NCBI GenBank assembly: GCA_001513045.1
Contig: LFSB01000034.1
Span: forward strand, 1-36,425
Reading direction: 5' to 3'
Source of the DNA: Clostridiales bacterium DTU089
GTDB lineage: Bacteria; Bacillota; Clostridia; Oscillospirales; Acutalibacteraceae
DNA: 36,425 nucleotides
This document shows positions 8,174 to 31,873 of the stretch, piece after piece (positions within the stretch are counted from its first letter, which is position 1; each line of letters starts with the position of its first letter). Below the pieces are notes generated by a model. It did no database searches. It was given only the letters and a program-made list of their open reading frames with translations, and was not told the origin of the DNA. The position numbers and the translations under genes are program-made.

Positions 8174-9721
8174 ATGGCTAACAGCGAGGTAAAGAAAAAA
8201 ATAAACATAAAAGAGTCTCTGCGCTCATTCCGTGAGTCGGGCAAGAATCTTGACCCGTCCGTATCGCTTGAGCAGCAGAAAAACGTTACCGCAATAGAAT
8301 ATGTGAGCATATGTCTTGCGCGTATCGGCTCAGTGCTGGTGAGTACCCTTAGCGGTCTTGCGGCAACCTTTGCTTACGAGGTTTACTACGGCTCGATAAA
8401 TGTCGGCAGTGAGGAAATTGCGAGAATCAACGCCGTCCAGACGACGATTACCACCTTGCTTACCTATGCCGTGGGCTTGCTCGCGGCGGTTGTGGCATAC
8501 AAGTGGAAATCAAAATGGGGACGTTACCGCCAGTGGTATGTAATCTGTCTTGTGCCTGTCTTTGTGCTTACGGTGCTTAACTATTTTGTTCCGACCGGCA
8601 TGGATAAGGAGGGCATGATAGCCTTCAAATACATTCTGGCAATATTGAGCACCTTCTTTTCCGCCTTCAACAATCTCGGACTTAACATTCCTCAGGTTAT
8701 ATCGCCTAACTTCAAGGAAAAAAAGATTGTTGCGACGGCGTGGCAGATGTTCTATTATCTCGGCTACGGCGGAGCATATCTTTACACCTTCGTTTTCGGC
8801 GCATTCAGTGAAAACAAGCGGGCAATGTATATGTCTCTTGCGGTTGCCGCCGGCATCATCACAATGGTGGGTAACGTAATGTGCGCAGTGTTCTGCCGTG
8901 AGCGTATTGAGCTGCCCAAGCAGGAAAAGGTCAAGCTTTCCGGCGCGCTGTTCTCTCTGTTTAAATACAAAAACTACCGTGCGTATTATTATATGCAGTG
9001 GGTAAATGTTCTTGCCATGCTCGGCAAGATGTCAACCTATCTTGCCGCAATAACCGTGGGCTCGTCCAAAAACCTTCTGCTGACGTTGCCGACGGCGATA
9101 GGAACCGTGGTCGGCAACGTTATCTGCGCAAAGATATCCAAGAAGAAGGAACCGACTAAGATACTCAAGTTTTGCGGAGCCTACTCAATGGTATGTGCCG
9201 CGATTATATTTGTGGTTGCATATATGCAAAAGGAGTTCGGTCTGTTTTTCTATATATTCTACTTCTGCTTCGGCATCGGCGTGGGAATGCAGGAGCTCTC
9301 CACAAGCCATTTTACCGTCGAGTTCAACGACTATCTCGAATGGGAAACCGGAGAGCGCCTTGAGGCAATTCACGGTACGATTCCTACATATATCACAAAT
9401 GTTCTCAATTACTTCAAGGAGCTGCTCATCCCCTTTATGCTCGCATGGGTGGGCTATGAGTCGTCCAATGTTGACAATCTTGTTGAAACGATGAAGGCAA
9501 AGCCCGATTATTGGGACACCTGCATGTGGCTGCTCGCGTTCCTTGTGTTCGGCTATGCGCTGTGCAATCTGTTTAAAGCAATCATATTGAAGTTCTTCTA
9601 TGACGTGGAGGGCGACAAGAAAATACGCATGTATGAGGAGCTTGAGCAGAAGCGGCGCGAGCGCCATGAGGAAAACCTCGCCGTCAATGCGTCAGCGGTC
9701 GAAACCGTAAATAAGCAGTAG
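8174..9721 (+). CDS. GPH-family (MFS) sugar:cation symporter
   Basis: Membrane transporter of 515 residues with about 12 helices, resembling the glycoside-pentoside-hexuronide:cation symporters (MelB/XynB/UidB type). Supporting segments are KWKSKWGRYRQW in the first cytoplasmic loop, NNLGLNIPQVISPNFKEKK, and EFNDYLEWETGERLEAIHG near helix 10. The N-terminal 45 residues are polar, and the C-terminus is a charged tail rich in E, K and R. ATG 8174 follows AAAGGGGAG by about 8 bases. It converges on the six-gene catabolic operon that contains a lyase and an esterase, so a glycan-derived oligosaccharide or uronide is a reasonable substrate. The exact substrate cannot be told. Confidence 0.85.
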   Translation: MANSEVKKKINIKESLRSFRESGKNLDPSVSLEQQKNVTAIEYVSICLARIGSVLVSTLSGLAATFAYEVYYGSINVGSEEIARINAVQTTITTLLTYAVGLLAAVVAYKWKSKWGRYRQWYVICLVPVFVLTVLNYFVPTGMDKEGMIAFKYILAILSTFFSAFNNLGLNIPQVISPNFKEKKIVATAWQMFYYLGYGGAYLYTFVFGAFSENKRAMYMSLAVAAGIITMVGNVMCAVFCRERIELPKQEKVKLSGALFSLFKYKNYRAYYYMQWVNVLAMLGKMSTYLAAITVGSSKNLLLTLPTAIGTVVGNVICAKISKKKEPTKILKFCGAYSMVCAAIIFVVAYMQKEFGLFFYIFYFCFGIGVGMQELSTSHFTVEFNDYLEWETGERLEAIHGTIPTYITNVLNYFKELLIPFMLAWVGYESSNVDNLVETMKAKPDYWDTCMWLLAFLVFGYALCNLFKAIILKFFYDVEGDKKIRMYEELEQKRRERHEENLAVNASAVETVNKQ

Positions 9722-9758
9722 CTGAAGGAATGTATAAAGCTCGAAAGGGGGCATGGCT

Positions 9759-10583
9759 GTGATTGAGTTGCCGGAGGCGCTTTCACTACCGCGTCTGATA
9801 AACGAAAGGCTTGCCGGAAAAGCAGTTGTACAGGTATTTGCGCCTACCAAGCCGCACCGGTTTTGCTGGTTTAGCGGAGATGCGTCGGAATATGATGCCG
9901 GACTCCGGGGCAGCACACTCACCGGAGCAGAGGGCTTCGGCATATATGCGGAGCTTGCGTTTGACAACGGCAGAAGGCTTTGTGTGAATGACGGTGTGAA
10001 TATGCGCCTTGTCTGCCGGGGCGACGTGCCTAAGGATTATCAGCTGCTTATTACCTTCGATACCGGAGAGGCACTTGTTTTCACGGTTGCGATGTACGGC
10101 GGTATAGTTTTACACGCGGGCGATTATGACAACGAATATTACCTCAAGAGCCGGAACTTTGTTTCACCCTTTTCTCCGGATTTTGAAGCGCTGTACTATG
10201 ATACTCTCAAAAGCAGCAAGCCCTCGGCAAGCGTAAAGGAATTTCTTGCAACGGGGCAGCACTTTCCCGGCATAGGCAACGGTGTGCTTCAGGATATTCT
10301 GTTTGATGCGGGAATAAATCCCAGAAGTAAGCTTTCGGCGCTGGGCGAGGAAAAACTCCGGAGCTTGCTGAAAAGTACGGTTTCGGTTCTGCGTGATATG
10401 ACCGATAAGGGCGGACGCGATACCGAGAAAAATATTCTGGGAGCTCCCGGAGGATATATCACGAAAATGTCAAGGAACGCTCTGAAAAACGGTTGCCCCG
10501 TTTGCTCGGGGGCAGTGACCAAGGAGGCATATCTCGGCGGTTCGGTGTATTATTGCAGTCACTGTCAGCCGGTTTTAAAGTAA
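9759..10583 (+). CDS. Fpg/Nei-fold protein lacking catalytic residues
   Basis: Member of the formamidopyrimidine-DNA glycosylase/endonuclease VIII superfamily, 274 residues, all domains present: N-terminal beta-sandwich, H2TH region (HFPGIGNGVLQDILFDAGINP) and a zinc finger with C246, C249, C266 and C269 ending CxxCQ. Start: AAAGGGGG at 9744-9751 is only one base from ATG 9753 but 7 bases from GTG 9759; the GTG start gives M-I-E-L-P-E, aligned with the canonical M-P-E-L-P-E. The catalytic Pro is therefore Ile, and the conserved beta-hairpin Lys (RRxKY) is Ile62 (GFGIYAEL). Glu3 is kept. It begins 37 bases after the symporter and may be co-transcribed. DNA-lesion binding without the usual Schiff-base chemistry, or a changed chemistry, is inferred. 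Confidence 0.85.
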   Translation: MIELPEALSLPRLINERLAGKAVVQVFAPTKPHRFCWFSGDASEYDAGLRGSTLTGAEGFGIYAELAFDNGRRLCVNDGVNMRLVCRGDVPKDYQLLITFDTGEALVFTVAMYGGIVLHAGDYDNEYYLKSRNFVSPFSPDFEALYYDTLKSSKPSASVKEFLATGQHFPGIGNGVLQDILFDAGINPRSKLSALGEEKLRSLLKSTVSVLRDMTDKGGRDTEKNILGAPGGYITKMSRNALKNGCPVCSGAVTKEAYLGGSVYYCSHCQPVLK

Positions 10584-10591
10584 CATTAAGT

Positions 10592-10625
10592 AAAAGGACC
10601 TGCGAAAAATCGCAGGTCCTTTTTT
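10592..10625. terminator. Bidirectional rho-independent terminator
   Basis: Near-perfect stem AAAAGGACCTGCGA (10592-10605) / TCGCAGGTCCTTTT (10610-10623), loop AAAA, with T-runs on both strands. It separates the convergent Fpg-like gene (plus) from the lyase gene (minus). Confidence 0.9.
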
Positions 10626-10647: not shown

Positions 10648-12642
10648 TTATACCGCAGGCTCAAGCGTTACGGTTATTACCGCACTTTTTACATTTTCAA
10701 GATGAACGGCGAGCTTGGTTATGCCTGTGTATTCCGAATCGTATTCGTACGCTCCGGACAGCGCCCTTGCGGGCATGACGCAGAAGGTTCCGTCATCGGG
10801 AAGTGTTGCTCTGAGCTGCTTTCCGTTGAGAGTGAGCAGGGCGGTTTTGCCGTCCTGTGAAATTTCCGCCGCTGCTTTGGTGTGCATGAACCAGTATATT
10901 TCGCTCTCGCTGCTGCATTCAACGGTATCCTTGATTTTCAGACAGGTTCGTCCGTTGTAAAGCTCGAATTCCCTTGTGACGGATTTTGCCTTGTTCATGC
11001 AGTAGGCATCAGTCATGTCAAGAACGCATTTGCCGCCGTCGGATGTTTCCTCGAAGGAGGAGAAGGAGCATTTTGCAAGGGCGTACTGGTCCTCACTTTT
11101 TAAATCGGGATTTATAAGCAGAGTGTTCTGACCCTCGGCGCGCTTGCAATAGTTCTTCCAGCGTCCGCCTCCGGGCAGACCGAGGAAATAATCAGGTGCG
11201 TCATAGCTTCCGGGGCCGAGCTCTTCAGCCCATCTTTCGCCCATGGAGTCAAATATAAAGGTTCCGATATCAAGGTCGCCGTGGTTTGTGTAGTTATAGC
11301 CGCCCTTTATTGCGGCGCAGGTTGCGTTTTTGTCAAGATACGCGCTGCGCATGAGTGCCAGAGTCTGACCGGCATCGGATTTCAGCAATACCGAAAGCGG
11401 CTCACCGTCAAAGACGGCGTTGTCGGTGGGAAGGCTTCTGTTATACCACAGCGAGCACAGAGCATTTTCCCGTCCTCCCGAATTGCGCTCTGTGTTATCC
11501 GAGGTGTCCGCGCTAAAGGCTGCGGGTATCTCCTGCATCTGATATGCCGCCAGCAGGGGAGCGTTATATTCCGAGGCGTACCAGTGCAGAGCCGGTGAAA
11601 AGCCCATCTCGTCCTTATTGTCGCCGAAATTGAAAACTCCGGCGGGTGCGGTTACATATACAGGAAAATTGCCGAGCTGACGGAAGCCGTCAATTTCGGA
11701 CATTCCGAAGTCGGTTCCGAAAAAGTTTCTTGAGGAGGCTATAAAATTAACGATGGCATTTGTGCCGGATATTGAGTATACAGGCCCCTCAATATATACA
11801 CCGTCCGGGGTGAAGCTTGAAAAGGCTATGGGCATATTTTTATAGCACATTGCAAGGAATTCGGCGGCCTGCTCCGGATAGTATGAAGCGAACGCCATGC
11901 ACGCCGTGCCTATGCCGTTATAGCAGATGCTGTTCCAGTTGTTCTTGGACCAGGTAAACCAGTTTTTCAAATAGTTTTTGGAAAGCGCGGGAGTTATTGC
12001 GTAATCAAGGGTCTTCTGAGCGAGCATGTCTTTTTGTGCCTCACTCAGATAATCGAAAAGCCAGTCGTAGCCGACGGATACAGCCATTGCCATTTCGGCG
12101 GTTGCGAGGAAGTGTGTGGGGCACCAGTCCGGATACGAGCAGACCTTTTCAAGCTCAAGCACTGCCCGGTCGGCATACTTGGCTTCTCCGGTCACCTGCC
12201 AGGCATATCCGAGAATTACAATGCGGTTTATAACCTCGCGGGATATCGGCAGGATGCTGTCCTCCTCATCAAGCTTGTATTCCATCACGGGGAAGCTGTC
12301 CGTGTTCAGCAGAGCGTCGGCGTTTGCAAGCACATAGGTGTTGAGTGCTCCGGCGTATTCGCCTGCGCTTCCGGCTTTGTATTCGGAACGTACGGCGGCG
12401 AAATTCTCCTCATCCGCAAGAACAAAGGGGTGCTTTGCCGTGCTGACGGCAGCCGATATTGCTTCGCTCAGCTCCTTTTTGCCTACCGCGTTTTTATCCC
12501 TGTCAAGATTTACGTAATCAATTCCGACCTTTACCATGTCGGGAATCACCGAAAGCGCGGGAACAAGACCGGTGCATGAAAGGGCGATAACGGCGCAGAG
12601 AATGATTGCGACAACCAGCAGAATCCTTTTGAAAATACGCAT
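10648..12642 (-). CDS. Heparinase II/III-like polysaccharide lyase, exported
   Basis: Protein of 664 residues with an N-terminal hydrophobic export or anchor segment (residues about 5-24, ending ALSCTG; the Cys could be a non-canonical lipobox). An alpha/alpha-toroid region (about 80-400) carries the NNWN motif at 234-237 followed by NGIGTACMA, as in heparinase II/III and PL8/12/15/21-type lyases. The beta-sheet domain begins about 420 and contains NHGDLDIGTF (H454) and SMGERWAEELG, a conserved block of Hepar_II_III proteins. Expected reaction: beta-elimination in a uronic-acid polysaccharide. It is the last gene of the six-gene operon, 34 bases after the esterase, with GGAGG 8 bases before the ATG. 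The actual glycan is unknown. Confidence 0.85.
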   Translation of the reverse strand: MRIFKRILLVVAIILCAVIALSCTGLVPALSVIPDMVKVGIDYVNLDRDKNAVGKKELSEAISAAVSTAKHPFVLADEENFAAVRSEYKAGSAGEYAGALNTYVLANADALLNTDSFPVMEYKLDEEDSILPISREVINRIVILGYAWQVTGEAKYADRAVLELEKVCSYPDWCPTHFLATAEMAMAVSVGYDWLFDYLSEAQKDMLAQKTLDYAITPALSKNYLKNWFTWSKNNWNSICYNGIGTACMAFASYYPEQAAEFLAMCYKNMPIAFSSFTPDGVYIEGPVYSISGTNAIVNFIASSRNFFGTDFGMSEIDGFRQLGNFPVYVTAPAGVFNFGDNKDEMGFSPALHWYASEYNAPLLAAYQMQEIPAAFSADTSDNTERNSGGRENALCSLWYNRSLPTDNAVFDGEPLSVLLKSDAGQTLALMRSAYLDKNATCAAIKGGYNYTNHGDLDIGTFIFDSMGERWAEELGPGSYDAPDYFLGLPGGGRWKNYCKRAEGQNTLLINPDLKSEDQYALAKCSFSSFEETSDGGKCVLDMTDAYCMNKAKSVTREFELYNGRTCLKIKDTVECSSESEIYWFMHTKAAAEISQDGKTALLTLNGKQLRATLPDDGTFCVMPARALSGAYEYDSEYTGITKLAVHLENVKSAVITVTLEPAV

Positions 12643-12676
12643 AAGCGGGTCCTCCGTTCGTTTTTATATAAATAAA

Positions 12677-13720
12677 TTATTTACCGGACAGGAAGTCGAA
12701 GGCTTGCTTGCCGCTGACCTGATGCTTGCCGTCAAAAACATCTGTATGCAGCTTATCCGAGGCACCGACGAGCGAATATATTTCGGCAATCTTTTTATGT
12801 GCGAGACGGCTTGCTTCAATCGGGAAAATTTTGTCGCGGGTTCCGGATTCTATAAGAAGCTCACGCGGAGCGAGAGCACAGGCAAAGTCGTATATTTCGC
12901 CGATGCTGAGTATTCCCGGAATGTAGTTGTCGGGGCAGTGCCACAGCGAGAGTATGCTGTCGCGGAAGGTGTTTATGTAGCCGCTCACGACAATTCTTTT
13001 AAACCGTTCGTCAAGCACCGAGGCGTAGAGCGCGGTAAGACCTCCGCCGGAAATTCCCATGCAGGCAAGGCGGCTTGTATCAACCTCCGGCTTTTCCGAA
13101 AGTAGGCTTGCGCATGCGATTGCCTGAAGCACGCGAACCGATGCGGTTGTGAGAGAGTAAGGCAGAAGATGGTGTGACAGCTCTTTACAGGAGCTTGCGT
13201 AAAACGGCTTTGCCAAATCCTTTTTCAGCCTTGCTTCGCCGAAGCCGAAAAGCTCGGGAGCGGCAACTATGCAGCCGCGCCGTGCAAGCTCAAGAGCAAA
13301 GCTTTTCTGGTAGTTGTCGAAATATCTCAGGTGCTTTTTGCGTCCGTTTCCCGATATGCCGAGAATCTGGCGCACTCCGTAGCCGTGTCCGCACAGAGCG
13401 ACAACGCCGGGGACGGGCTGTCTGACAGTTTTCGGGGTAAGTATGTAGACGGCTGTTTGAAGGTTTTCACACACCCGCACCGAATACTTTTGCATGGCAA
13501 AGCTTCCGAAATCGACAGGCTCGCCTCTTTTTTCAGTCGAAAAAGGGGCGCTTATGTCGCAAAGAGCGTCAAGGTTGAACAGCTGTTTTGCCCTTTCTCT
13601 GATATCGGCACCGACCTTCAAAGCCTCCTCGGCGTTTTTTGTCTGCGCATAGGGCTGTGCACGGTGTGAGGCGTAAAGCTTATCCATAAATAAATCCGGA
13701 GAATATTCGCTGTCCTTCAA
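12677..13720 (-). CDS. Alpha/beta-hydrolase, acetylxylan-esterase-like
   Basis: Cytosolic hydrolase of 347 residues without a signal peptide. The nucleophile elbow is GISGGG with Ser224. The likely acid is the Asp in ESGTRDKIFP and the catalytic His is in DGKHQVSG near the C-terminus. The oxyanion region is LCGHGYG, and the long insertion before the elbow (about 120-190) fits the dienelactone-hydrolase/AXE1-like group often found in glycan loci. Start: TTG 13720 is chosen because AGGGAGG lies about 7 bases upstream; the next in-frame ATG is residue 12. It probably removes acyl groups from imported sugars, inferred from its neighbours. It lies 93 bases after the TIM-barrel gene. Confidence 0.8.
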   Translation of the reverse strand: MKDSEYSPDLFMDKLYASHRAQPYAQTKNAEEALKVGADIRERAKQLFNLDALCDISAPFSTEKRGEPVDFGSFAMQKYSVRVCENLQTAVYILTPKTVRQPVPGVVALCGHGYGVRQILGISGNGRKKHLRYFDNYQKSFALELARRGCIVAAPELFGFGEARLKKDLAKPFYASSCKELSHHLLPYSLTTASVRVLQAIACASLLSEKPEVDTSRLACMGISGGGLTALYASVLDERFKRIVVSGYINTFRDSILSLWHCPDNYIPGILSIGEIYDFACALAPRELLIESGTRDKIFPIEASRLAHKKIAEIYSLVGASDKLHTDVFDGKHQVSGKQAFDFLSGK

Positions 13721-13813
13721 AACAAGACCTCCCTGTTATCTCGTGTTACCCTGTGCCGCGGTTACGGGTATTTTTCCTTAATTCTGCCCTCCGTCGGGGG
13801 AGTTAAAAAGCCT

Positions 13814-14557
13814 TCAGTAGCTTTTCAGACGTTTAACGTCCTGCATGAAATATTCGGCGCTTGCCTGCCGTGTGAATTCTATCATAACCACGCCTGCAAA
13901 ATCCTTCTCAAGAAGCTTTTTGAGCAGGATATCTATATATTCCCTGTTCTTTTTCTTGAAGCGCTGTTCACGAGTAAGCTCGGAATAGGATATATGCACA
14001 TCGCGCGTTATTTCAAAGGTGCGCTCGATTCTGTCAAGGTCATAGTCGAGCGAGTGATATCTCGATTGAAAATAGGTGCGGAAATTTTCACATTTCAGCT
14101 CGTCACAAAAGCGCAGTATGGCATCGGTGTTGTTGTTGAAGGTGTTGCCGTGGCACTCCGCGCAGACGGTAAGACCTGAACGTTCTGCGGCGGAGCACAT
14201 GGAGCGGGTGTCCTCAAGCAGCCGCTCATATTCCGCGGCGGAGGTTTTCTCGCTGTTTTTGTTTCCGAGCCATATTCTTATTGACGGTGCGGACATCTCG
14301 TGCGCAAGAGCGCATATACGCAGCCACTCATCCTTATCGCCGCAGCCGGCGGTGTAATAGCTGCCGCAGGAGCATATCCCGATTCCCGCAGCATCGCACA
14401 GCGATTTGACATTTGCGGCATCATCGGGTGTTTTTACGTGGATATCCGTACCCCATTCTATGTATTGCGCGCCGGCGTCCTTTGCGATTCCGACAATCTC
14501 GCTATGGGATTTTTGACGGAAGGTGGTGCTTGTAAGACCGATTTTAAAATTGTCCAT
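13814..14557 (-). CDS. TIM-barrel sugar isomerase/epimerase-like protein
   Basis: Xylose-isomerase-like TIM barrel (AP endonuclease 2 superfamily), 247 residues. The strand ends usually bearing metal ligands are visible: Glu in VCAECHG, His in DVHISYS and Glu in VVMIEFTRQ. The strand that normally gives an Asp reads TYFQSRYHS, with Gln instead, so metal binding may differ. It starts 3 bases after the flavoprotein stop and its GAGG ribosome site lies inside that gene, so the two are tightly coupled. Enzymes of this fold isomerise sugars, epimerise keto-sugars, or cleave C-C and C-glycosidic bonds of 3-keto-glycosides (DgpC/DfgA type). Which of these applies is unknown. Confidence 0.75.
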   Translation of the reverse strand: MDNFKIGLTSTTFRQKSHSEIVGIAKDAGAQYIEWGTDIHVKTPDDAANVKSLCDAAGIGICSCGSYYTAGCGDKDEWLRICALAHEMSAPSIRIWLGNKNSEKTSAAEYERLLEDTRSMCSAAERSGLTVCAECHGNTFNNNTDAILRFCDELKCENFRTYFQSRYHSLDYDLDRIERTFEITRDVHISYSELTREQRFKKKNREYIDILLKKLLEKDFAGVVMIEFTRQASAEYFMQDVKRLKSY

Positions 14558-14560
14558 AGC

Positions 14561-16360
14561 TCAAACCTCGGTTTCGGCAAGATATTTTTCAAACGCACCG
14601 TCCGGCAGCGGCACCGGAGACGTTTTTTCAAAGCTGATTTCCTCGCCGTCGGTAATCGTAAGATATTCTCTGTATTTCCGGTTTTCCGGCACAATTTTGC
14701 CGCCATCGGCAAATACGGCTCCTCCGCGGCTGCCTGTGAGAGGCATTTCGAGAAGAACGGTTTTCAGCAGAGCCCGTGCACAAATGAGCATATCAAGGTC
14801 ATAAAAATACTGTTCAATGCCGCGGTGCTTCGCGGGGTAAGTCTTTAACAGAGCGGTTATTTCGCCGAGCAGTGCCTCACATTTTTCTTTGTCCCTTATA
14901 AATGCGGCAAAATTGCTCATTTTACGGGGGATGTATGAGTAATCAACCTCCGGGGCCGTTTTAAAGCCGGATACCTTCGCCGCATAACGCTTTTCCTCGT
15001 CAATTACGGCGTCACGGTTGATTTCCCGGCTGATATGATTTTTTATACGGCGCGCGCATACAAGTGCGCCGACCTGTGTATCGTTGAGAGCGGAGCCGCC
15101 GGGTCTTGCAAGCCCGAAGGAGCCTGCCGCCTCACCGATGACATAAAGCCCTTCGATGTTTGTCTGATAATCGCAATCGGTATACACTCCGCCGTTGTTG
15201 TGCTGGGCGCACACCCCTATACGCAGTCGCTGAGAACGCAGGTCAATACCGTGTCCTGCATAGACGGCAATTGCCTTGGGATTGAGAAGCGCAAGTCTTT
15301 CAATCGGCGTTTCCGCCTCGGCACCCGCGTTTTCCAAGTATCCGAGAGCCTCGTCGGAAAGCGAGGAAAACGCAAAGCCCTCGGGATTTTTCGTATAGTC
15401 GAGGTATACTCTTCTGCCGTTGCGGATTTGCTCATCAACGGCAAGGTCTATCTTCGACGAGCCCTCTGTCCTCTCCGAGCAGAAGGGCCACTGATAGCCC
15501 TTGAGAAAGACAAGATTGTTCGCAGCCTCTGCGCTGCCGGCATATTCCGGCAGGAATTCACGCTCATCCGAGTCCTCGCCGACACTTACAAATCTTGGTA
15601 TGACCTGCATGAAGCTTCCCGATACATTCCAGCGGAAGTCGGTTGAGGCAAGGCCGTACTGCCATTGCGAAAAATTGCACAGCCTTACGCCGGCGCTGAT
15701 AAGCACGCCTGTCATTCCGTGCTGCGATTCGGGATATACCGAGCGCTCGTAAATACAGGCCGGTGCACCGGATGCGACGATTATATTTTTTGCAAAAATG
15801 CTTTCCGGCTGTCCGGTTTTGCGGTTGAGCGCAACAATACCGCATACCCTACGGTCTTTAATGCCTTCGGTTACGATTTTTATTACCTGCAGATTGTCAA
15901 GCAGAGGGGTGGCGTTTTTGTTCAACACCACATCCTCGAGAGCCTGTGTCATGAATTTTGAGGTGAGAGGTCCGGCGGAGGTTGCGCGCATGGAGCTGTC
16001 GTGGTCGGTTTTATAGCCCGGAAAGCCACCGAAGCTGTCTGTGGGAAATTTAACCCCGTATTCGCACAGACGCAAGAAGCAGCGCTGGCTGTTGACGGCC
16101 TGAATGTACGCTTTTTCGCCGTCACATGAGCCGCCCGAGCAGATGTCGAGAGCCATTTTCCGGGCGCTGTCCTCGGAGCAGCCGTCCATAGCGAGCTTGT
16201 AATAGGTCTGCTTATCGCTGCCGGTGTTTCTTGAGGTTCCGGAAAGCCTGCCTTCGGTGACAACGGCTATGTTCGTGACTCCCTCGCAGAAAAGCCTGTC
16301 TGCCGCGGCGTATCCGGCTGCGCCGCTGCCTATTATTATTGCATCGTAAATCTTTTTCAT
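14561..16360 (-). CDS. Fumarate-reductase-type FAD oxidoreductase of unknown substrate
   Basis: Flavoprotein of 599 residues. An N-terminal Rossmann motif GSGAAG (11-16) and the late FAD block GLYVIGEAAGSFGLARPGGSALN place it in the fumarate reductase/succinate dehydrogenase/L-aspartate oxidase/KstD superfamily. A run RNTGSDKQTYYKL sits where that superfamily often has its SGG...A segment near the flavin. CAQHNNGG marks the capping region. No signal peptide or haem motif is seen, so electrons probably move within the cytosol. It overlaps the SDR by 4 bases (ATGA). The C-terminal 100 residues, helical and then a short beta segment, resemble the superfamily's helical domain. A sugar or polyol dehydrogenase role is inferred from context; the substrate is not known. 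Confidence 0.82.
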   Translation of the reverse strand: MKKIYDAIIIGSGAAGYAAADRLFCEGVTNIAVVTEGRLSGTSRNTGSDKQTYYKLAMDGCSEDSARKMALDICSGGSCDGEKAYIQAVNSQRCFLRLCEYGVKFPTDSFGGFPGYKTDHDSSMRATSAGPLTSKFMTQALEDVVLNKNATPLLDNLQVIKIVTEGIKDRRVCGIVALNRKTGQPESIFAKNIIVASGAPACIYERSVYPESQHGMTGVLISAGVRLCNFSQWQYGLASTDFRWNVSGSFMQVIPRFVSVGEDSDEREFLPEYAGSAEAANNLVFLKGYQWPFCSERTEGSSKIDLAVDEQIRNGRRVYLDYTKNPEGFAFSSLSDEALGYLENAGAEAETPIERLALLNPKAIAVYAGHGIDLRSQRLRIGVCAQHNNGGVYTDCDYQTNIEGLYVIGEAAGSFGLARPGGSALNDTQVGALVCARRIKNHISREINRDAVIDEEKRYAAKVSGFKTAPEVDYSYIPRKMSNFAAFIRDKEKCEALLGEITALLKTYPAKHRGIEQYFYDLDMLICARALLKTVLLEMPLTGSRGGAVFADGGKIVPENRKYREYLTITDGEEISFEKTSPVPLPDGAFEKYLAETEV

Positions 16361-17094
16361 AGGCGTCTTACATTGAAGCCTCCGTCACAGTCTATAACGG
16401 TGCCGGTACAAAAATCGAAATCTCCGCGCGCAACAGCCCGGACGCATCCTGCGATGTCCGAGGGCTGACCCATGCGATTTATGGGTGTGACACCGTCGGC
16501 GATGAGCTTGTCGTATTTTTCCTTTACGCACGCCGTCATGTCCGTTTCAACGATTCCGGGGCGTATTTCAAGCACGCTTACGGAGTGCTCGGCAAGCCTT
16601 GCCGCAAACAGCTTGGTAAGCATGGAGATTCCCGCCTTGGATACGCAGTATTCCGCTCGGTTTACAGAGGCGGTGTATGCGGAAACAGACGAGATATTGA
16701 CTATTCTCGCTCTGCCGTTTTTTATAAGCAGCGGCGCGAATTTTTGTGTTACAAAGAAGGTTCCGCGCAGGTTTATGTCGAGCACGGAATCAAAATCCTC
16801 CGGGGATATTTCAAGAATATCCTTGCGTGAACGGGGAGCAACTCCCGCGTCATTTACAAGCAGGTCAAGGCTGCCGTATTTTTCTCTTACAAAGCAGACG
16901 AGCGCCTCTATGCTTTCGGGATTTGAAATGTCCGCAGGTACAAAGTCAAACCTGTCCGGAAAAGCGCTTTTTAATTCGCCGACGGTGTCCGACTCTTTTC
17001 TTGATGAGCCGACAACACAAAAGCCGTCATCAAGCAACGCCTTTACCGTTGCGGCTCCGATTCCCCGGCTCGCTCCCGTTACTACTGCAACCAT
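16357..17094 (-). CDS. SDR-family NAD(P)-dependent oxidoreductase
   Basis: Classical short-chain dehydrogenase of 245 residues. The cofactor motif is TGASRGIG (6-13), the structural motif is NDAG, and the active site is S in NISSVSAY with Y149 and K153 (YCVSKAG). The C-terminus DFCTGTVIDCDGG is typical of FabG-like SDRs. GSSRKES after beta2 suggests NADP(H). It sits 15 bases after the OYE gene and overlaps the flavoprotein. FabG itself usually lies in a fatty-acid cluster, which is absent, so a sugar or carbonyl reductase of this pathway is more likely. GGGAGAG lies 7 bases before the ATG. Confidence 0.88.
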   Translation of the reverse strand: MVAVVTGASRGIGAATVKALLDDGFCVVGSSRKESDTVGELKSAFPDRFDFVPADISNPESIEALVCFVREKYGSLDLLVNDAGVAPRSRKDILEISPEDFDSVLDINLRGTFFVTQKFAPLLIKNGRARIVNISSVSAYTASVNRAEYCVSKAGISMLTKLFAARLAEHSVSVLEIRPGIVETDMTACVKEKYDKLIADGVTPINRMGQPSDIAGCVRAVARGDFDFCTGTVIDCDGGFNVRRL

Positions 17095-17109
17095 AATATA
17101 CTCTCCCTT

Positions 17110-18324
17110 TTATTTTAAAACATATTTTTTGTAGTAGGGCATATATGTTTCGCTGTCCCTCACCGCGCAGCCCGACACTGTTCCGGCGCGCATAAGCTCG
17201 GTGCATTTCCCGCATTTAAGGCATACCTTTGACGGGTCGGGCGCTCCGTGTTCAATACTGTCTCTGAAAAACTCCGGATAAGCGAGTGTCATTCTGCCGA
17301 AGCCGGCAAACGAGGCAATTGAGTTCCGAATTATGCGCGATGCGTAGGAGACGGCGTTTTCCCCTTCATAGCTCAAGCCGGACATTGCAAACTTTAAATC
17401 CGGAAATGACTGCGATATGCTTTTTGTAACCTCGTATATGCGCTCCAAGCTGACGCTTCCGTCCTCCGGACCCTTGTTCCACGGGCGATTGACATGTGGT
17501 ATGAGATAAGGATTTCCGAGGGTTATGTTTATAAGCTCAATACCCCTCCGACGCAGCTGCTCAATGATGATTTTTGTCTCAGAAAGGTCAATTTGATTTT
17601 TCTCGTCCACGCCGAAGCCGAAGGGATAATCAAAGCAATCACAGGCGTTAAGACGGGTGGTGACAAACATGTTATCGGGTATGCTTTTCTTTACACTGTC
17701 TATACATTCAAAAAACAGCCTCGTCCTGTTTTCAAGACTTCCGCCGTAGCGTCCGGGACGCTGAGTTGCACTGAGGAACTCATCAAGAAGGTATCCGTGG
17801 CAGCACTTGACATCAATTCCGTCGAAGCCGGCATAGGAGGCGAGAGCGGCGGCGCGTGCGTATTTTTCGGGAAGAGCGGCGCAATACTCGTCACTTGCGA
17901 TGACATAGGGCTGTTCGAGCTTTCCTTTTTCCCACAGGCTGTTGCGGTAGGCAACTATCGGTGCCGGGGTGCCCTCAGGCTTGCTGAACCTTCCGCTGTG
18001 AGTGAGCTGCGCGATAATGACGGGCGAAAAGCCGTGCTCCTCAAAGGATATGCGTTTGATATCGGAAATCAGAGAACGAAAGCTTTCCTTGGTGCTGTCG
18101 TTTAAAAACATCTGTCTGGGATTTGCTCTGCCCTCCGGAGTGACAGCGGTAGCTTCAAACCATATTATTCCGGGAGCGGCGTGGGCAAATCTGAGATATT
18201 TTCTTCTCGCAAGCTCGCCGACTGCTCCGTTTTCGGCGTCACACCCCTCCATGGGCTGAAAGAGGATGCGGTTTTTTATTTCTCTGCCGTATATTGTTAC
18301 GGGTGTTTCAAGCAAGCTGTTCAT
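17110..18324 (-). CDS. Old Yellow Enzyme-family Fe-S flavoprotein, short form
   Basis: FMN TIM-barrel oxidoreductase of 404 residues, first gene of the operon. The OYE block HGYLLDEFLSATQRPGRYGGSLENR is present in part as H176 followed by YLLDEFLS and GRYGGSLENR. Near the C-terminus C368, C371, C374 and C386 form a C-x2-C-x2-C-x11-C cluster site like that of 2,4-dienoyl-CoA reductase and BaiCD. Unlike those enzymes it ends there and lacks the FAD/NAD(P)H domain, so another protein must supply electrons; the flavoprotein two genes on is a candidate. The first His of the usual H-x-x-H pair is Lys173 (KCCH), so substrate binding is altered. AAGGAAG precedes ATG 18324. Confidence 0.88.
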   Translation of the reverse strand: MNSLLETPVTIYGREIKNRILFQPMEGCDAENGAVGELARRKYLRFAHAAPGIIWFEATAVTPEGRANPRQMFLNDSTKESFRSLISDIKRISFEEHGFSPVIIAQLTHSGRFSKPEGTPAPIVAYRNSLWEKGKLEQPYVIASDEYCAALPEKYARAAALASYAGFDGIDVKCCHGYLLDEFLSATQRPGRYGGSLENRTRLFFECIDSVKKSIPDNMFVTTRLNACDCFDYPFGFGVDEKNQIDLSETKIIIEQLRRRGIELINITLGNPYLIPHVNRPWNKGPEDGSVSLERIYEVTKSISQSFPDLKFAMSGLSYEGENAVSYASRIIRNSIASFAGFGRMTLAYPEFFRDSIEHGAPDPSKVCLKCGKCTELMRAGTVSGCAVRDSETYMPYYKKYVLK

Positions 18325-18518: not shown

Positions 18519-18575
18519 AATTTTAATTGTAATTTCATAAAGCGTTATCGGGATTTTAGAAAAGAGAGGTTGAAA

Positions 18576-21269
18576 ATGGGAAGCAAAAATCAAAACAGCC
18601 CGCTTAAATATATAAAAAGCTCACAGTTTGTCCGCTCGGTTTTTATAAGAATTGCAGTAATATTTATGCTTGTGCTTATTGCGGTGGTTGCAATTGTGTT
18701 TTCCTCCTTCACGACTGAGATAAACAAAAGCCTTATATCGGAGAGGGAAAAGCAGCTTGATGTAATGGAAAACACCATATCAAAACGCATGGCGGAGGTT
18801 TCAAGCATAGCCTACAGCATAGGAAACGACACTTCGTTTTTCCTCGAATCCCCCGACAAGGCAAGCTATTACGGCTATGAAATGGCCGAGACAATGAAAA
18901 GATATCTCATAGGAAACGATTTTATAGAATATCTCGCGTATTACAGGCTTTCAGAGCCGGATACAATTTACACCTCCAAGGGCGAAATGTCCTTTAAGGG
19001 CTTCTGGAGCGCCTATCTCGGGCTTAATGAGGATTCGGCTGAAAAATATATCAGCATGACACAGTCGGTTACCAAGCCCGGTGTAAGATTTATGAACTTT
19101 GAGAGCACGGGAAAGGCTTATTTTTCATATATATGTCCGTTGCCGCAGTTTTCCGAAACTCCCCAGGCGTTCGTGTTAATGCTTATTCCGTTTTCTCAGG
19201 TTGAGCCTATAATAGAGTCTCAGCTCACAAACTGCTCCGGGGAGGTAGCCGTGTTTGATTCGTCGGGGAACGAGATATACCGTACCGGAAACCTTGAGGA
19301 AGGCGTACCCGTTGAGCTTTACACAACAGAGAACGGGGAGTCCTTTATGCATGACGGAAAAAGGTTTGTTGTGCAGAAAAAGATTTCTGAGAATAACAGC
19401 TGGACATATGTTTCTGTCATACGTCTTAACGACATAGTTTCAAGGGTTGCAGTCAAGCAGCTTGTTTTCATAGCGCTGATGATGGTGTTGATGATTGCGG
19501 CGGTTTTCGTGCTTCTTCGCAGTGTGGTCAAGCAGTATAAGCCCATAAACGAGCTTGCCGTAGGGCTCAGCTCGGAATCGGATGACGGAAAGGAAGCAGG
19601 AGCCGTAATCGATGAGAAGAGTCTGCTGTCGGATAAATTTGCCGTGCTGAAGGATGACAGCATGCAAAAGCAAAAGTTTGAGGAGGCTTATTACGCGGCG
19701 GAAGCGGCAAACAAGGCAAAGTCGGCGTTTCTGTCAAACATGAGTCACGACATAAGAACTCCCATGAATGCAATAGTGGGCATGACGCAGATAGCGCTCA
19801 AGCATCTTGATGACCCGCCGTACGTGAAGGATTGTCTGCAAAAGGTCGGCGTGGCATCGCAGTATCTTCTCGATATTATCAATAACGTGCTTGATATGAG
19901 CAGAATCGAGTCCGGGCACTTCACGCTTTCGCAGGACGTTATAGAGCTGCCGAGGTTTATAGGCAGAATAATCACCGTGCTCAATCAGAGCCTTGAGGTA
20001 AAAAGCCAGCGTCTGATAGTTGAGGTCGGTGACGTTTCGGACGAGAAAATCATAGGTGACAATGTCCGTCTTACTCAGGTGTTTATGAACATCCTTTCAA
20101 ATTCCGTAAAATTTACGCCCAACGGCGGTACGGTCGGCTTGAGAATAAGCCAGGAAGCATCTGAAGACGAGGGCTTCGGGAATTATGTTTTTACCTTCTC
20201 GGATAACGGAATAGGAATGTCACCGGATTTCGTGCAAAAGGTATTTGACACGTTTACGCGCGATGAAAAATCCGGCATCTCGAAAATAGAGGGAACCGGA
20301 CTCGGAATGGCAATCGTAAAGAATTTTGTTGACCTTATGGGCGGAACCATAGTCTGTAACAGCAAGCCCGGAGAGGGAACCGTATTTACCGTGCGTATGC
20401 ACATGAAGCTTGCTCAGGGCTCGGATGAAAACGAAGCTGAGGATTATACCGATACGTCTGTGCTCATATTCGGCGATGAAAAGCGTGTGTGCGACAATCA
20501 GAGCCGGATGTTCGAGAGTGTCGGCGCTAAGACGGATTGTGCATTCAGCCTGCTTGATGCCGTCAAGCTTTCATCACGGGCGGCGTCCAACGGGAAGCCG
20601 TATAAATATGTAATAATTAACCAGAGCGAGAGCGATAAGAGCGGCATACGTGCGGTGGCGCAGCTGTCCGGGGCGGCACTCGGCGCTGATGCTACATATA
20701 TTCTTGCGGCGCGTGATATGTTCTCGGTTGAACGTTCCTCGGCGTACAATGCCGGTATAGCTGCCTTTGTTCAGATTCCTCTTTTCAAAAGCACGGCGCT
20801 GAGCATACTCAATAATACTGTAAAGCGTCAGGATATGACCGACAATGAAAACACGGTCAAACTTGAAGGGGCTCATGTGCTTCTGGTTGAGGATGATAAA
20901 ATCAACCGTGAGATTGCACGTACGCTTATCAGCGAAACCGGAGCTCAGACAGTGGAGGCGGTCAACGGCAGGGAGGCAGTGGATGCCTTCAGAGAGCACG
21001 GTGAGGGATATTTCGATGTCATTCTTATGGATGTGCAGATGCCGGTTATGAACGGATATGACGCAACTGTCGCGATACGCTCAATACAGCGCGCTGATGC
21101 TTCCTCGGTGCCAATTTATGCAATGACGGCAAACACCTTTGATGAGGATGTGCGGCAGGTCAGAGAGGCGGGGATGAACGGCCATCTCGGGAAACCCTAT
21201 GTGCCATCCGAGCTGTTTGAACTTCTTGCAAACGCCGTCGAGCAAGGCGGCGGAAAAAACAGCATTTAA
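18576..21269 (+). CDS. Hybrid sensor histidine kinase with C-terminal receiver
   Basis: Membrane kinase of 897 residues. TM1 is at about 20-45 and TM2 at about 290-313, with an extracellular sensor of about 245 residues between them. HisKA has H391 in FLSNMSHDIRTPMNAI. The HATPase region shows NILSNSVKFTPNGG, FSDNGIGMS and GTGLGMAIVKN. A receiver-like segment at about 630-760 has Asn in place of the phospho-Asp (VIINQSE), so it is degenerate. The last domain (about 765-890) is a full receiver with DD pair, D819 in ILMDVQMP and KPY. ATG 18576 follows AGAGAGG by 6 bases; an in-frame TTG at 18570 lies too close. It is divergent from the catabolic operon and convergent with a solute-binding protein, so it may sense the locus substrate. 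No output regulator gene is present nearby. Confidence 0.9.
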   Translation: MGSKNQNSPLKYIKSSQFVRSVFIRIAVIFMLVLIAVVAIVFSSFTTEINKSLISEREKQLDVMENTISKRMAEVSSIAYSIGNDTSFFLESPDKASYYGYEMAETMKRYLIGNDFIEYLAYYRLSEPDTIYTSKGEMSFKGFWSAYLGLNEDSAEKYISMTQSVTKPGVRFMNFESTGKAYFSYICPLPQFSETPQAFVLMLIPFSQVEPIIESQLTNCSGEVAVFDSSGNEIYRTGNLEEGVPVELYTTENGESFMHDGKRFVVQKKISENNSWTYVSVIRLNDIVSRVAVKQLVFIALMMVLMIAAVFVLLRSVVKQYKPINELAVGLSSESDDGKEAGAVIDEKSLLSDKFAVLKDDSMQKQKFEEAYYAAEAANKAKSAFLSNMSHDIRTPMNAIVGMTQIALKHLDDPPYVKDCLQKVGVASQYLLDIINNVLDMSRIESGHFTLSQDVIELPRFIGRIITVLNQSLEVKSQRLIVEVGDVSDEKIIGDNVRLTQVFMNILSNSVKFTPNGGTVGLRISQEASEDEGFGNYVFTFSDNGIGMSPDFVQKVFDTFTRDEKSGISKIEGTGLGMAIVKNFVDLMGGTIVCNSKPGEGTVFTVRMHMKLAQGSDENEAEDYTDTSVLIFGDEKRVCDNQSRMFESVGAKTDCAFSLLDAVKLSSRAASNGKPYKYVIINQSESDKSGIRAVAQLSGAALGADATYILAARDMFSVERSSAYNAGIAAFVQIPLFKSTALSILNNTVKRQDMTDNENTVKLEGAHVLLVEDDKINREIARTLISETGAQTVEAVNGREAVDAFREHGEGYFDVILMDVQMPVMNGYDATVAIRSIQRADASSVPIYAMTANTFDEDVRQVREAGMNGHLGKPYVPSELFELLANAVEQGGGKNSI

Positions 21270-21349: not shown

Positions 21350-23011
21350 TTACTTAATGTTGCTTTTTATGTCCGTATATCTGTCAACGGCGTTTTGATA
21401 GAGTCCCACAAGCTCATCGGAGCCGAGCTTGTGAAGCTGTGAAAGGTATGAATCCCATTCATCGAAGCTCTTTTTGCCGGTAATAAAGTCCGTCATTGAT
21501 GAGGAGATATGCTTTGAAATATCCGCTTGAAGAATGCTTATGCGGTCATTTTCCTCATTTGTAAAGGTGAAGCTCGGCCAGAACTCCTCGGGACGGTATT
21601 CAAACAGCTTTCTTGCCGCCGCCGCGGGGATTTCAGCCATCTCACCGCCCATGAAGTAAGGGGCGATTTCAACCGTCGGGTTGCCGCCGCCGGGATACGG
21701 AGAGTATTTTGCAATTATGGCATCGAACGATTTCCCGGAGCTGTTTATTTCATCATAAATCTTCTGAGAGTAATCGTAGCTGCCGTCCTCTTTTACAACA
21801 AAGGTGTCATTTTCAATTCCCATATGATAGAAAAGCGTACCCTCATCTGTCCAGAAGTAGTCAAGCCAGCGCAGCACAAGCGCGGGGTCTGTGCAGGTTG
21901 AGGGAATGAGGGCGGCTCCGGTTGAGTGGAAGTTTGCTCTTACCGCAGAAATCTTTTTATAGCCCTCAGGTCCCTCAAGAGCCTCCTCCACGGCGACCCA
22001 ATTGTCCGCCGCGCCGGAGGGAAGGGAGGCGAGATTTGTGCTTGAAAAAACGCCTATACAGTCGTTGGCGGCATAATTCGTCCACTGCTCAAGGGTGATG
22101 GTGAACACGGATTTGTCGAGTAAGCCCTCGGAATACAGGCGGTTCATGTATTCAAGATAATCCCTGTAACCGTCGGTTCCGGCAATCAGACGAGCCTTGC
22201 CGGTGGTTTCCTCGGCATCGACAAATAGGTTGTGCACACCCCTGTTGCCTATTCCGAAGGAGCCGTATAATGCTTCCTCAAGGCTGAGTAAATCCTGAGA
22301 GCAAAGAGGTATTTCGTCGGAGGGGTCGCCGTTGCCGTTGGCATCAAGCTCTTTAAAGGCTTTAAGCAGCGCATAAAGCTCCTCGGTGGTGGAGGGAAGC
22401 TGCATATTCACATTTTCGAGCCATTTTTTATTGATGAAAATCTTTCTTGATACGCTCAGCTCGGCTCCGGAGTTTACCTGTGGCAGCGCATATATGGTTC
22501 CGTCGGGATTTGTTACGGAGGCGAGAGCTTCGGGATGGGATTTCAGATAAGCCCAGCAATTCGGGGCATATTTTTCGAGCATGCCGTCCTTGGCAAGGTC
22601 GAGAATCAGTCCGCTTTCGCCGTATTGCATCAGTCTTCTCGCAGAAACCTTGCAGCGTATAACCAGGTCGAGCGGGGTTTTGTTCATGAGTGCGTCATAT
22701 AAAGCCTTTGCGCGCTCATCCTTTGTTACGGTTGTCCAGTTGACATCTATGCCGGTCATTTCCTCGTATTTTTGCCAGATGTAAATGTCCCCGGCGCTTA
22801 CACCGTTGCTTTCCACATTCATGATATTGAAGGACGCGGTATTGTTGACAAGCGGAAATTCACACGGGATATTTCCCACAACAGACGGCTTTCCGGCAAG
22901 ACTGGTGGTTACAACAATTCCGTTTTTTGAGTTGTCGGGAGCTTTATCGCAGGAGCTGAAAAAAGTGCACATGATAAGCAAAACGGCGACGGCGCTTGTG
23001 AGCTTTTTCAT
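21350..23011 (-). CDS. Extracellular solute-binding lipoprotein (ABC family 1), orphan
   Basis: Lipid-anchored substrate-binding protein of 553 residues. It has a KK-type signal peptide and a lipobox FSSC with lipidated Cys21. The body is typical of large sugar-binding proteins of the LplA/YtcQ kind: EEMTGIDVNWTTV, the calcium-site-like DANGNGDPSDEIPL, and a C-terminal SFDEWDSYLSQLHKLG. No permease or ATPase genes lie in the window, so it must use components encoded elsewhere or present ligand to the neighbouring hybrid kinase. ATG 23011 is chosen (AAGGGGG about 11 bases upstream); a TTG at 23020 sits against the site. It most likely binds a saccharide. Confidence 0.88.
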   Translation of the reverse strand: MKKLTSAVAVLLIMCTFFSSCDKAPDNSKNGIVVTTSLAGKPSVVGNIPCEFPLVNNTASFNIMNVESNGVSAGDIYIWQKYEEMTGIDVNWTTVTKDERAKALYDALMNKTPLDLVIRCKVSARRLMQYGESGLILDLAKDGMLEKYAPNCWAYLKSHPEALASVTNPDGTIYALPQVNSGAELSVSRKIFINKKWLENVNMQLPSTTEELYALLKAFKELDANGNGDPSDEIPLCSQDLLSLEEALYGSFGIGNRGVHNLFVDAEETTGKARLIAGTDGYRDYLEYMNRLYSEGLLDKSVFTITLEQWTNYAANDCIGVFSSTNLASLPSGAADNWVAVEEALEGPEGYKKISAVRANFHSTGAALIPSTCTDPALVLRWLDYFWTDEGTLFYHMGIENDTFVVKEDGSYDYSQKIYDEINSSGKSFDAIIAKYSPYPGGGNPTVEIAPYFMGGEMAEIPAAAARKLFEYRPEEFWPSFTFTNEENDRISILQADISKHISSSMTDFITGKKSFDEWDSYLSQLHKLGSDELVGLYQNAVDRYTDIKSNIK

Positions 23012-23059
23012 AATTATCAATACCCCCTTCTGACGAAATACGACAAGGTGTCACATTTT

Positions 23060-26455: not shown

Positions 26456-26481
26456 TTTTATGACCATTCCTTTCCGCCGAG

Positions 26482-26572
26482 CCGCAAACTTTGTGGCGGT
26501 TTCGGCTTGCCGAAATGACGGTCGTTGACCGTCAAGGCACAAATTTGCCGTTTGAAAGATTTATCTTTCAAA
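26482..26572 (-). repeat. Chain of five adjacent short palindromes in a leader
   Basis: Back-to-back inverted repeats: CCGCAA/TTGTGG (26482-26496), TTTCGGC/GCCGAAA with a TT loop (26500-26515), TGACGGT/ACCGTCA (26516-26534), GGCA/TGCC (26536-26549) and TTTGAAAGAT/ATCTTTCAAA (26551-26572). They lie between the predicted promoter and the ribosome site of the lipase-like gene, so they would be transcribed. They may be a structured leader RNA or a REP/MITE-like dispersed repeat. Confidence 0.7.
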
Positions 26573-29714: not shown

Positions 29715-29760
29715 ATTTTTGATTATTCCTTTCGCTTCGGGAAAAAGCAGCTTCCCGCTT

Positions 29761-30618: not shown

Positions 30619-30637
30619 TGTATTTTCCTCCTTATAA

Positions 30638-31852: not shown

Positions 31853-31873
31853 GTTGTTTTCCTCCGATTTATA

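Follow-up and report, generated by a model that had tools for sequence, protein, structure and literature searches.

Background

Equol genes encode a daidzein reductase (an NADH:flavin oxidoreductase), a dihydrodaidzein reductase (a short-chain dehydrogenase/reductase, SDR) and a tetrahydrodaidzein reductase resembling succinate dehydrogenase and fumarate reductase, as given in the accessible part of PMC4381290. Lyases of 3-keto-glycosides eliminate the aglycone across C1-C2, according to excerpts of PMC13273386, and GAGase II, a glycosaminoglycan (GAG) lyase of polysaccharide lyase (PL) family 35, needs Asn192, Tyr246 and His401, as mutation results in sections of PMC12088678 indicate. Here we describe an operon of six genes on the minus strand of contig LFSB01000034.1 of Clostridiales bacterium DTU089, probably a gut bacterium; the whole stretch of 36,425 nucleotides that was analysed is referred to as the window. 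In the direction of transcription the operon encodes a short protein of the Old Yellow Enzyme (OYE) type, an SDR, a flavoprotein, a TIM barrel, an esterase-like hydrolase and a lyase (Table 1), with Pfam matches to Oxidored_FMN, adh_short, FAD_binding_2, AP_endonuc_2, Abhydrolase_7 and Hepar_II_III_C, respectively. Among published gene trios the equol set comes nearest, a parallel missed by an earlier sequence-only reading of this DNA, which had compared the operon with the Dgp system of glycoside cleavage.

The OYE, SDR and flavoprotein genes constitute a real conserved unit, one that recurs far beyond chance. The two flavin enzymes, with their helpers beside a lyase, may form an undescribed route for consuming glycan fragments. 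Our favoured reading, tentative and falling a little short of an even chance, is that the six genes make up a cassette for the catabolism of glycan fragments containing uronate, in which unsaturated uronides would be converted by a redox route to 2-keto-3-deoxygluconate (KDG).

A conserved set of redox genes

The six genes, with their strand, coordinates and spacings, are as the sequence-only reading described them: open reading frame calls agree with it, and the intergenic gaps computed from the frame ends are, in the order of transcription, 15, -4, 3, 93 and 34 bases. As a check, that reading proposed a search for the OYE, SDR and flavoprotein, with the TIM barrel, as a conserved neighbourhood across Clostridia; both gene calls and profile searches show the set to be conserved.

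Relatives of the flavoprotein, counted at E<=1e-60, were found in 39 of the 295 genomes of the order and in 21 of 398 genomes sampled from the phylum, the host genome being included in both figures. They occur also in 16 named loci, the titles of 11 of which name a herbivore gut. Whole-genome profile searches located the OYE subfamily (E<=1e-50) in 53 of the 59 flavoprotein-positive genomes (38/39 at the level of the order, 15/20 at that of the phylum) as against 0/21 flavoprotein-negative genomes of the order, a co-occurrence with a Fisher p of about 3e-14 when kinship is left uncorrected. The same pattern is seen within single families, the OYE being present in 6/6 positive and 0/4 negative genomes of family f1 and in 6/6 and 0/3, respectively, of family f17. 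Among the 53 genomes with both genes, the two lie within 5 kb of each other in 34, farther apart on one contig in two and on different contigs in 17 (nine from the order and eight from the phylum); broken assemblies may account for part of this last group. The SDR (E<=1e-70) was found by the same kind of search in 37/39 order-level and 6/20 phylum-level positives and in 0/21 negatives. Since it is sparse among the phylum-level positives, the OYE and flavoprotein form the tight pair, with the SDR and TIM barrel as more local partners.

Gene neighbourhoods were also scored within four genes of the flavoprotein. Across the 16 named loci an OYE was so placed in 16, an SDR in at least 15 and a TIM barrel in at least nine; across 38 loci of the order the corresponding figures are at least 26, at least 23 and at least 11. 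All these counts are lower bounds since the neighbour gene calls keep the longest frame and miss some SDR and OYE genes (in one locus, L051 = G132, tblastn reveals both), a limitation of which the whole-genome profile searches are independent. The co-occurrence of OYE and flavoprotein (53/59 against 0/21) amounts to a specific claim about enzyme partners, and it stands even if the substrate suggested here is wrong.

The operon proteins

The lyase is matched by phmmer over most of its length to solved PL35 enzymes (9o3q, E 2.9e-64; 8khv, 1.7e-63; 8khw, 1.4e-59). Its N235, Y289 and H454 align with the three GAGase II residues named above, the solved-chain numbering being shifted by 22. When 13 heparinase-type lyases of the set were aligned (eight PL35 including that of the window, two PL33 and three others), Y289 and H454 were kept in 13/13 and N234/N235 in at least 90%. 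Judged by these matches, the last gene of the operon encodes a PL35-type lyase with its catalytic residues kept, and activity on GAGs containing glucuronate (GlcA) is predicted. It is the sole PF07940 member found in the host genome. Its N-terminus, read by eye, is hydrophobic and the other five operon proteins have no such stretch, so that the lyase, probably membrane-anchored or exported, would act outside the cell and the rest inside.

The flavoprotein, which has one match in the host genome, was modelled with AlphaFold2 at a predicted local distance difference test score (pLDDT) of 93.8. The best matches of the model in the PDB are FrdA and SdhA, Foldseek giving template modelling (TM) scores of 0.74/0.77 to 5vpn_A, and by this model the protein is of the FrdA/SdhA fold. 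In the alignment with FrdA, Arg419 falls on the arginine within 'ANRLG', while Q386-H387 faces the 'HY' pair, both of which we take to be carboxylate-binding in FrdA; the proton-shuttle region is unaligned.

The OYE subfamily is defined by an unusual active-site signature. Of 53 clustered sequences five were dropped by length, and the other 48 were aligned; all 48 keep the motif K173-x-C175-H176-x-Y178 together with four cysteines, C368, C371, C374 and C386. The position of K173 is His in the five classic solved OYEs with alignments shown; 2,4-dienoyl-CoA reductase, we believe, likewise departs from His there. Long forms of the OYE bearing a C-terminal FAD/NAD-type domain are present in genomes G334 and G375. 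Long members of the subfamily, of 878 and 903 amino acids (L109:2739-5375 and L110:4470-7181), end in a Pyr_redox_2 domain, and one of them carries Fer4_20 as well; the domains of the long forms suggest how an Fe-S (iron-sulphur) site may be fed.

SDR residues S136, Y149 and K153 are invariant in 25/25 aligned sequences, as are E134, H136, Q164, H188 and E227 of the TIM barrel in 19/19. The best named model for the SDR is NCBIfam PRK12745, '3-ketoacyl-ACP reductase' (285 bits, cut-off 250). A fatty-acid reading was discarded for this operon, there being no fatty-acid gene among the scanned neighbours described below. The TIM barrel model (pLDDT 95.4) finds its best PDB match in AsbF (3dx5, TM 0.80), a probable 3-dehydroshikimate dehydratase, followed by ketose 3-epimerases and then DgpB-C (7drd, TM 0.72-0.73) and YcjR (6wn6, TM 0.77). 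Members of the esterase family turn up in 12 other loci, at a distance of two to five genes from the flavoprotein.

Neighbourhoods in relatives

In 13 named relatives whose flavoproteins are 61-64% identical to that of the window, the genes usually run OYE-SDR-flavoprotein-(TIM)-(2-hydroxyacid dehydrogenase)-GH3-esterase (GH, glycoside hydrolase family). GH3 and esterase are present in 11 of these loci and a convergent PL35 gene in seven. More distant operons contain lyases of other kinds. In L063 and, by cluster, in L047 the OYE and SDR genes are separated by a PL33 lyase gene, the family assignment being taken from the accession list within the accessible part of PMC11848413; the +1 site of PL33 is described as GlcA-specific in that same part (PMC11848413). 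A third heparinase-like family follows the TIM barrel gene on its 3' side with a four-base overlap in L073 and, by cluster, in L076. In L068, L061, L090 and L097, some of these assigned by cluster with L068, the set itself includes KDPG aldolase and a PfkB kinase, and in genome G292 an aldolase gene is located some 1.6 kb downstream of that for the flavoprotein. L068 further carries a BadF-type kinase and a GKRP-like SIS protein, while in L037 a GH84 N-acetylglucosaminidase is positioned upstream of the set with one reversed gene between; these additions would fit a glycan of GlcA and N-acetylhexosamine. An MFS_2 transporter stands within the related operon of L034.

Forty-eight neighbours, hand-picked rather than random (10+10+10+10+8), were scanned against Pfam. 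Matches were obtained for 38 of them, 31 of which were counted as sugar-related. The non-sugar neighbours include AraC regulators, a histidine kinase and beta-lactamase-fold, M20 peptidase, BNR-repeat and MBOAT proteins; no gene of steroid, bile-acid, phenolic or fatty-acid metabolism was seen among the 48. These results support the sequence-only reading, which had named recurrence beside other lyases or glycosidases (here PL35, PL33 and the third heparinase-like family, along with GH3 and GH84) as favouring it and a place in steroid, bile-acid or fatty-acid metabolism as refuting it.

Several lineages, then, tie a flavoenzyme pair that can be tracked across the phylum to lyases and to KDG metabolism.

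Uronate metabolism in the host and across genomes

The sequence-only reading held that no standard uronate route (kduI, kduD, kdgK, uxaC) is present. This is true of the window only, since UxaC, UxuA, a KDG-kinase-like PfkB protein and KDPG aldolases, in addition to a D-mannonate oxidoreductase-type SDR, are encoded elsewhere in the genome. For GH88, the enzyme thought necessary for the products of heparinase-type lyases, the host yields a single hit, which is partial and scores 20.9 bits (27.9 if frame neighbours are included; cut-off 26.6), covering profile positions 22-104 of 352 within a frame of 641 amino acids. KduI was not found in the host genome by searches with PF04962 and NCBIfam profiles. 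Two PF04962 fragments considered as kduI candidates were rejected: they adjoin iolD and iolC, and of the NCBIfam models they match IolB alone, falling under its cut-off because each is half a gene. Such iolB halves at contig ends could pass for kduI in a family search.

Across the order-level genomes, PF07940 lyases are present in 26/39 flavoprotein-positive and 2/39 negative genomes (Fisher p 1e-8). Strong GH88 matches (E<1e-20) are absent from 18 of the 26 positives that bear such a lyase. At the looser threshold of E<=0.001, GH88 is found in 16 positives and nine negatives. PF04962, covering KduI and IolB, occurs in 11/39 positives, the IolB fragments of the host included.

A proposed route

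The lyase would be exported and would cut at glucuronate residues, leaving a 4,5-unsaturated uronyl end, and the fragments would enter the cell through a transporter, which may be the GPH-type symporter encoded next to the operon. Once in the cytoplasm, the unsaturated uronyl residue would be turned into KDG by the OYE, flavoprotein, SDR and TIM barrel, redox and elimination steps replacing the unsaturated glucuronyl hydrolase (GH88/105) plus KduI and KduD. First, the FrdA-fold flavoprotein would oxidise the C3 hydroxyl of the unsaturated uronide, a position at which an FAD enzyme could act since the hydroxyl is allylic; this would yield an oxa-analogue of 3-dehydroshikimate, on which AsbF presumably acts. 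The TIM barrel would then eliminate the aglycone across C1-C2, much as AsbF-type enzymes and 3-keto-glycoside lyases act on related ketones, to give a pyranone carboxylate. Reduction of the resulting enone by the OYE would be followed by ring opening. Last, the SDR would reduce the remaining C4 ketone to yield KDG; L-KDF 4-dehydrogenase, presumably, is likewise an SDR. That enzyme acts at C4 of a 2-keto-3-deoxy acid, according to the excerpt available of PMC11199699. The esterase would strip acyl groups, and KDG would pass to KDG kinase and KDPG aldolase, whose genes lie outside the operon in the host genome and within the set in certain relatives. Since the sum of the route equals that of GH88, KduI and KduD, the electrons gained by the flavoprotein could be those that the OYE uses. 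What the data show is the genes with their families and conservation and the catalytic residues of the lyase; we infer the substrate, the order and direction of the steps and the electron carriers.

A fully specified version of this scheme, which we judge quite improbable as a whole, would be redox-neutral. It would comprise oxidation of the C3 hydroxyl, aromatising elimination by the AsbF-like TIM barrel, a comenate (hydroxy-pyranone carboxylate) intermediate, ring reduction by the OYE and formation of KDG by the SDR from 2,4-diketo-3-deoxygluconate, with OYE and flavoprotein coupled for electrons through the OYE Fe-S cluster. Such coupling as a general rule is weakened by G334 and G375, which have an OYE-Pyr_redox_2 fusion and the flavoprotein as well.

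Searches of open-access full text returned, among the matches listed, no description of the OYE set with heparinase, polysaccharide lyase or uronic acid, and a separate search for comenic acid did not meet it in any of the papers listed. Neither was a description found of an OYE in a gene cluster with a flavoprotein and linked to 2-keto-3-deoxygluconate or uronate, nor any of 4-O-methylglucuronate catabolism, in the same kind of text. If the proposal is true, it represents a non-hydrolytic way of dismantling uronides, and it could explain the growth of lyase bearers that have no strong GH88.

Weighing the alternatives

A number of observations weigh against a cassette dedicated to the uronide products of lyases. 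Thirteen of the 39 flavoprotein-positive genomes have no PF07940 lyase, and a PF07940 gene lies within 5 kb of the flavoprotein in only five of the 39 (the host, G192, G208, G264 and G283). Within family f17 the association vanishes, with 2/6 positives and 1/6 negatives, the signal thus leaning on some families. In the close relatives the PL35 gene is encoded on the opposite strand. Strong GH88 (E<1e-20) is found in 10/39 positives and 1/39 negatives, so that the set is no simple GH88 substitute; KDPG aldolase is common, scoring over the cut-off in 61 of 78 genomes; and the one RpiB/DhuI-family gene of the host makes DhuI possible there. Most phylum-level flavoprotein loci (n=20) are without OYE or SDR nearby: within four genes the gene calls place an OYE in at least four, an SDR in at least four and a TIM barrel in none, again as lower bounds. 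By eye, no sugar gene was recognised in the OYE loci L109, L110 and L117, and several flavoprotein loci stand beside seemingly unrelated genes, as in L088, a distant locus without this OYE, where the neighbours are like those of a CoA-transferase and an enoyl-CoA hydratase.

A first alternative is a general redox cassette for sugar acids or keto-sugars, in which OYE and flavoprotein interconvert hexonates or keto-acids feeding KDG and lyases are one supplier among several. Several phylum-level OYE loci contain Gfo/Idh proteins, TIM barrels, a Zn-alcohol dehydrogenase or an arabinofuranosidase, L087 has an IlvD-type (IlvD/Edd) dehydratase beside a relative of the set, and KDPG aldolase and PfkB kinases recur; such neighbours indicate that the family may act on sugar acids generally, and the 13 positives free of PF07940 point the same way. 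Against it stand the consistent company of GH3 and esterase (11/13) and PL35 (7/13) at 61-64% identity, and the PL33 and other heparinase-like genes embedded in more distant operons. We regard this explanation as possible though on balance unlikely.

It is improbable, in our view, that the operon encodes a variant of the standard route, the TIM barrel acting like KduI or DhuI and the SDR like KduD or DhuD on 4-deoxy-5-hexosulose uronate, with the OYE and flavoprotein working either as an electron sink in fermentation or on another group of the fragment. The SDR does score 152.7 bits on the KduD model (under its cut-off of 339) and the TIM barrel falls in an isomerase/epimerase superfamily; moreover KduI and DhuI are themselves unrelated enzymes for one step, as stated in the part of PMC12838403 available. 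However, that route has no use for the OYE and flavoprotein, the two members of the set whose pairing is strictest (38/39 at the level of the order), and an unsaturated-uronide hydrolase was not confidently found in the host genome.

Very improbable is an equol-like cassette, or another reducing aromatic or steroid enones, with the OYE acting on C=C, the SDR on C=O and the flavoprotein removing oxygen. A Slackia equol producer has these three families as contiguous frames, three in all, and L. garvieae employs SDR and fumarate-reductase-like proteins, according to the accessible part of PMC4381290. The OYE matches the BaiCD and bilirubin reductase models too, but only weakly, at 85 bits against a cut-off of 825 and 69 against 425. 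These scores led us to reject a bile-acid, steroid or bilirubin reading, and the 48 chosen neighbours are without phenolic, steroid or bile-acid genes, most of the named ones being sugar enzymes.

Least probable of all is a Dgp-type route on an ordinary O- or C-glycoside (oxidation to the 3-keto glycoside, cleavage by the TIM barrel, reduction of the enone by the OYE), which the DgpB-C and YcjR matches of the TIM model and the Gfo/Idh genes accompanying the family in several relatives favour but which is opposed by the higher ranking of AsbF and ketose epimerases over DgpB-C, by the invariant Gln164 at what we take to be the position of the metal-binding Asp of relatives, and by the absence of Gfo/Idh (PF01408) from the six operon proteins. 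With no Gfo/Idh/MocA protein among the six, and none of the small size that we assume for the DgpB subunit, the operon is no Dgp system. The sequence-only interpretation is, overall, partly supported: a redox cassette for sugar fragments holds in kind, while the likeness to Dgp is weakened, AsbF and the epimerases matching the TIM barrel at least as well as DgpB-C.

Other features of the window and of related loci

Table 1. Positions of the operon genes and of additional features, in window coordinates unless a locus is given.
Feature	Position	Strand	Basis
Short Fe-S OYE-like protein, 404 amino acids, operon gene 1	17110..18324	-	PF00724, 96 bits
SDR oxidoreductase, 245 amino acids, 4-base overlap with next gene	16357..17094	-	adh_short, NCBIfam PRK12745
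Flavoprotein, fumarate reductase / succinate dehydrogenase A fold (modelled), 599 amino acids	14561..16360	-	FAD_binding_2, AlphaFold2 model
Xylose-isomerase-like TIM barrel, 247 amino acids	13814..14557	-	AP_endonuc_2, 65.8 bits
Alpha/beta hydrolase, esterase-like, 347 amino acids, TTG start	12677..13720	-	Abhydrolase_7, 26.8 bits, cut-off 21
Predicted PL35-type glycosaminoglycan lyase, 664 amino acids	10648..12642	-	Hepar_II_III_C, phmmer to solved PL35
Terminator-like hairpin, 14 pairs, 3' of last gene	10592..10623	-	Consensus match only
GPH-type sugar/hexuronide symporter-like protein, convergent neighbour	8174..9721	+	MFS_2
iolB-like gene halves, host genome	L105:11702-12121, L106:8958-9359		Contig ends; PF04962, iolD/iolC alongside
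Members of family of about 540-570 amino acids	L047:2613-4307, L065:6472-8166, L069:4594-6210		Downstream of flavoprotein
Members of family of about 540-570 amino acids	L072:4588-6306, L079:10158-11813, L080:4990-6645		Downstream of flavoprotein

Purine stretches resembling ribosome-binding sites, judged by eye, lie upstream of most operon starts. The G+C content of the operon is 51.5% and that of the remaining window 47.8%. Thirteen terminator-like sites were found in the region as against 11.8 expected from shuffles, the stem at 10623-10592 being the longest by far.

The convergent GPH-type symporter, which reaches 80.7 bits on TIGR00792 gph (cut-off 231), is a possible importer of lyase products. 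Between it and the operon, at 9753-10583, lies a gene for a protein of 276 amino acids, possibly a diverged relative of formamidopyrimidine-DNA glycosylase; its H2TH match scores under the cut-off, and a C-terminal Cys pattern is seen by eye. On the other side, a divergent hybrid histidine kinase at 18570-21269 adjoins the operon (HisKA, HATPase and receiver domains, with a dCache match under the cut-off) and could possibly be its sensor. Further along are a gene resembling those of solute-binding proteins (21350-23020, weak SBP_bac_8) and one for a protein of 563 amino acids (24851-26542) that has no Pfam match and shares a 26% identical stretch with locus L031 of the set. What looks like an ordinary block for arginine biosynthesis occupies 28554-32806 (class-III aminotransferase, amino acid kinase, ArgJ, semialdehyde dehydrogenase).

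In six loci of the set we also observed, on the downstream side of the flavoprotein, proteins of about 540-570 amino acids that are 42-50% identical to one another and possibly represent a new enzyme family. That they might be distant heparinases was rejected, profile comparison giving a probability of 0.3% and one member finding nothing in Pfam and only a match at chance level (E 0.96) in the PDB.

Comparison with known systems

The PL35 GAGases (8KHV, 8KHW and the chondroitinase 9o3q) resemble the window lyase through the length-wide match and the catalytic Asn, Tyr and His; they parallel only the upstream lyase step of the operon and not its redox genes. The Fe-S OYEs, namely BaiCD (which NCBIfam labels an Fe-S flavoenzyme), bilirubin reductase and 2,4-dienoyl-CoA reductase (1ps9), share with the window OYE the FMN barrel and a similar four-Cys site, which in those relatives we presume to bind Fe-S. 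The window protein differs in being short, without the C-terminal FAD/NAD domain, and in its invariant Lys, at a position occupied by His in the five classic OYEs that were aligned.

The Dgp and 3-keto-glycoside lyase pathways, as outlined in excerpts of PMC13273386, likewise employ an oxidoreductase and TIM barrel proteins of the same superfamily on sugars; the operon, by contrast, has no Gfo/Idh dehydrogenase, its flavoprotein is of another fold and an OYE is added. The route through GH88/105 and KduI/KduD or DhuI/DhuD, as described in part of PMC12838403, shares with our proposal the presumed starting compound, an SDR reductase and KDG as the end product. There is no place in it, however, for an OYE and an FrdA-like flavoprotein, and in the host genome the searches made turned up no KduI and, for GH88, nothing beyond a weak partial match. 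Closest of all in gene content is the equol set, whose contiguous genes, as far as the accessible part of PMC4381290 goes, belong to the same three families as the OYE, SDR and flavoprotein of the operon, the comparison being made at the level of family. The trio described here is instead surrounded by a TIM barrel, an esterase and a PL35 lyase, joined in relatives by GH3 and KDPG aldolase, and no link to aromatics was seen in these surroundings.

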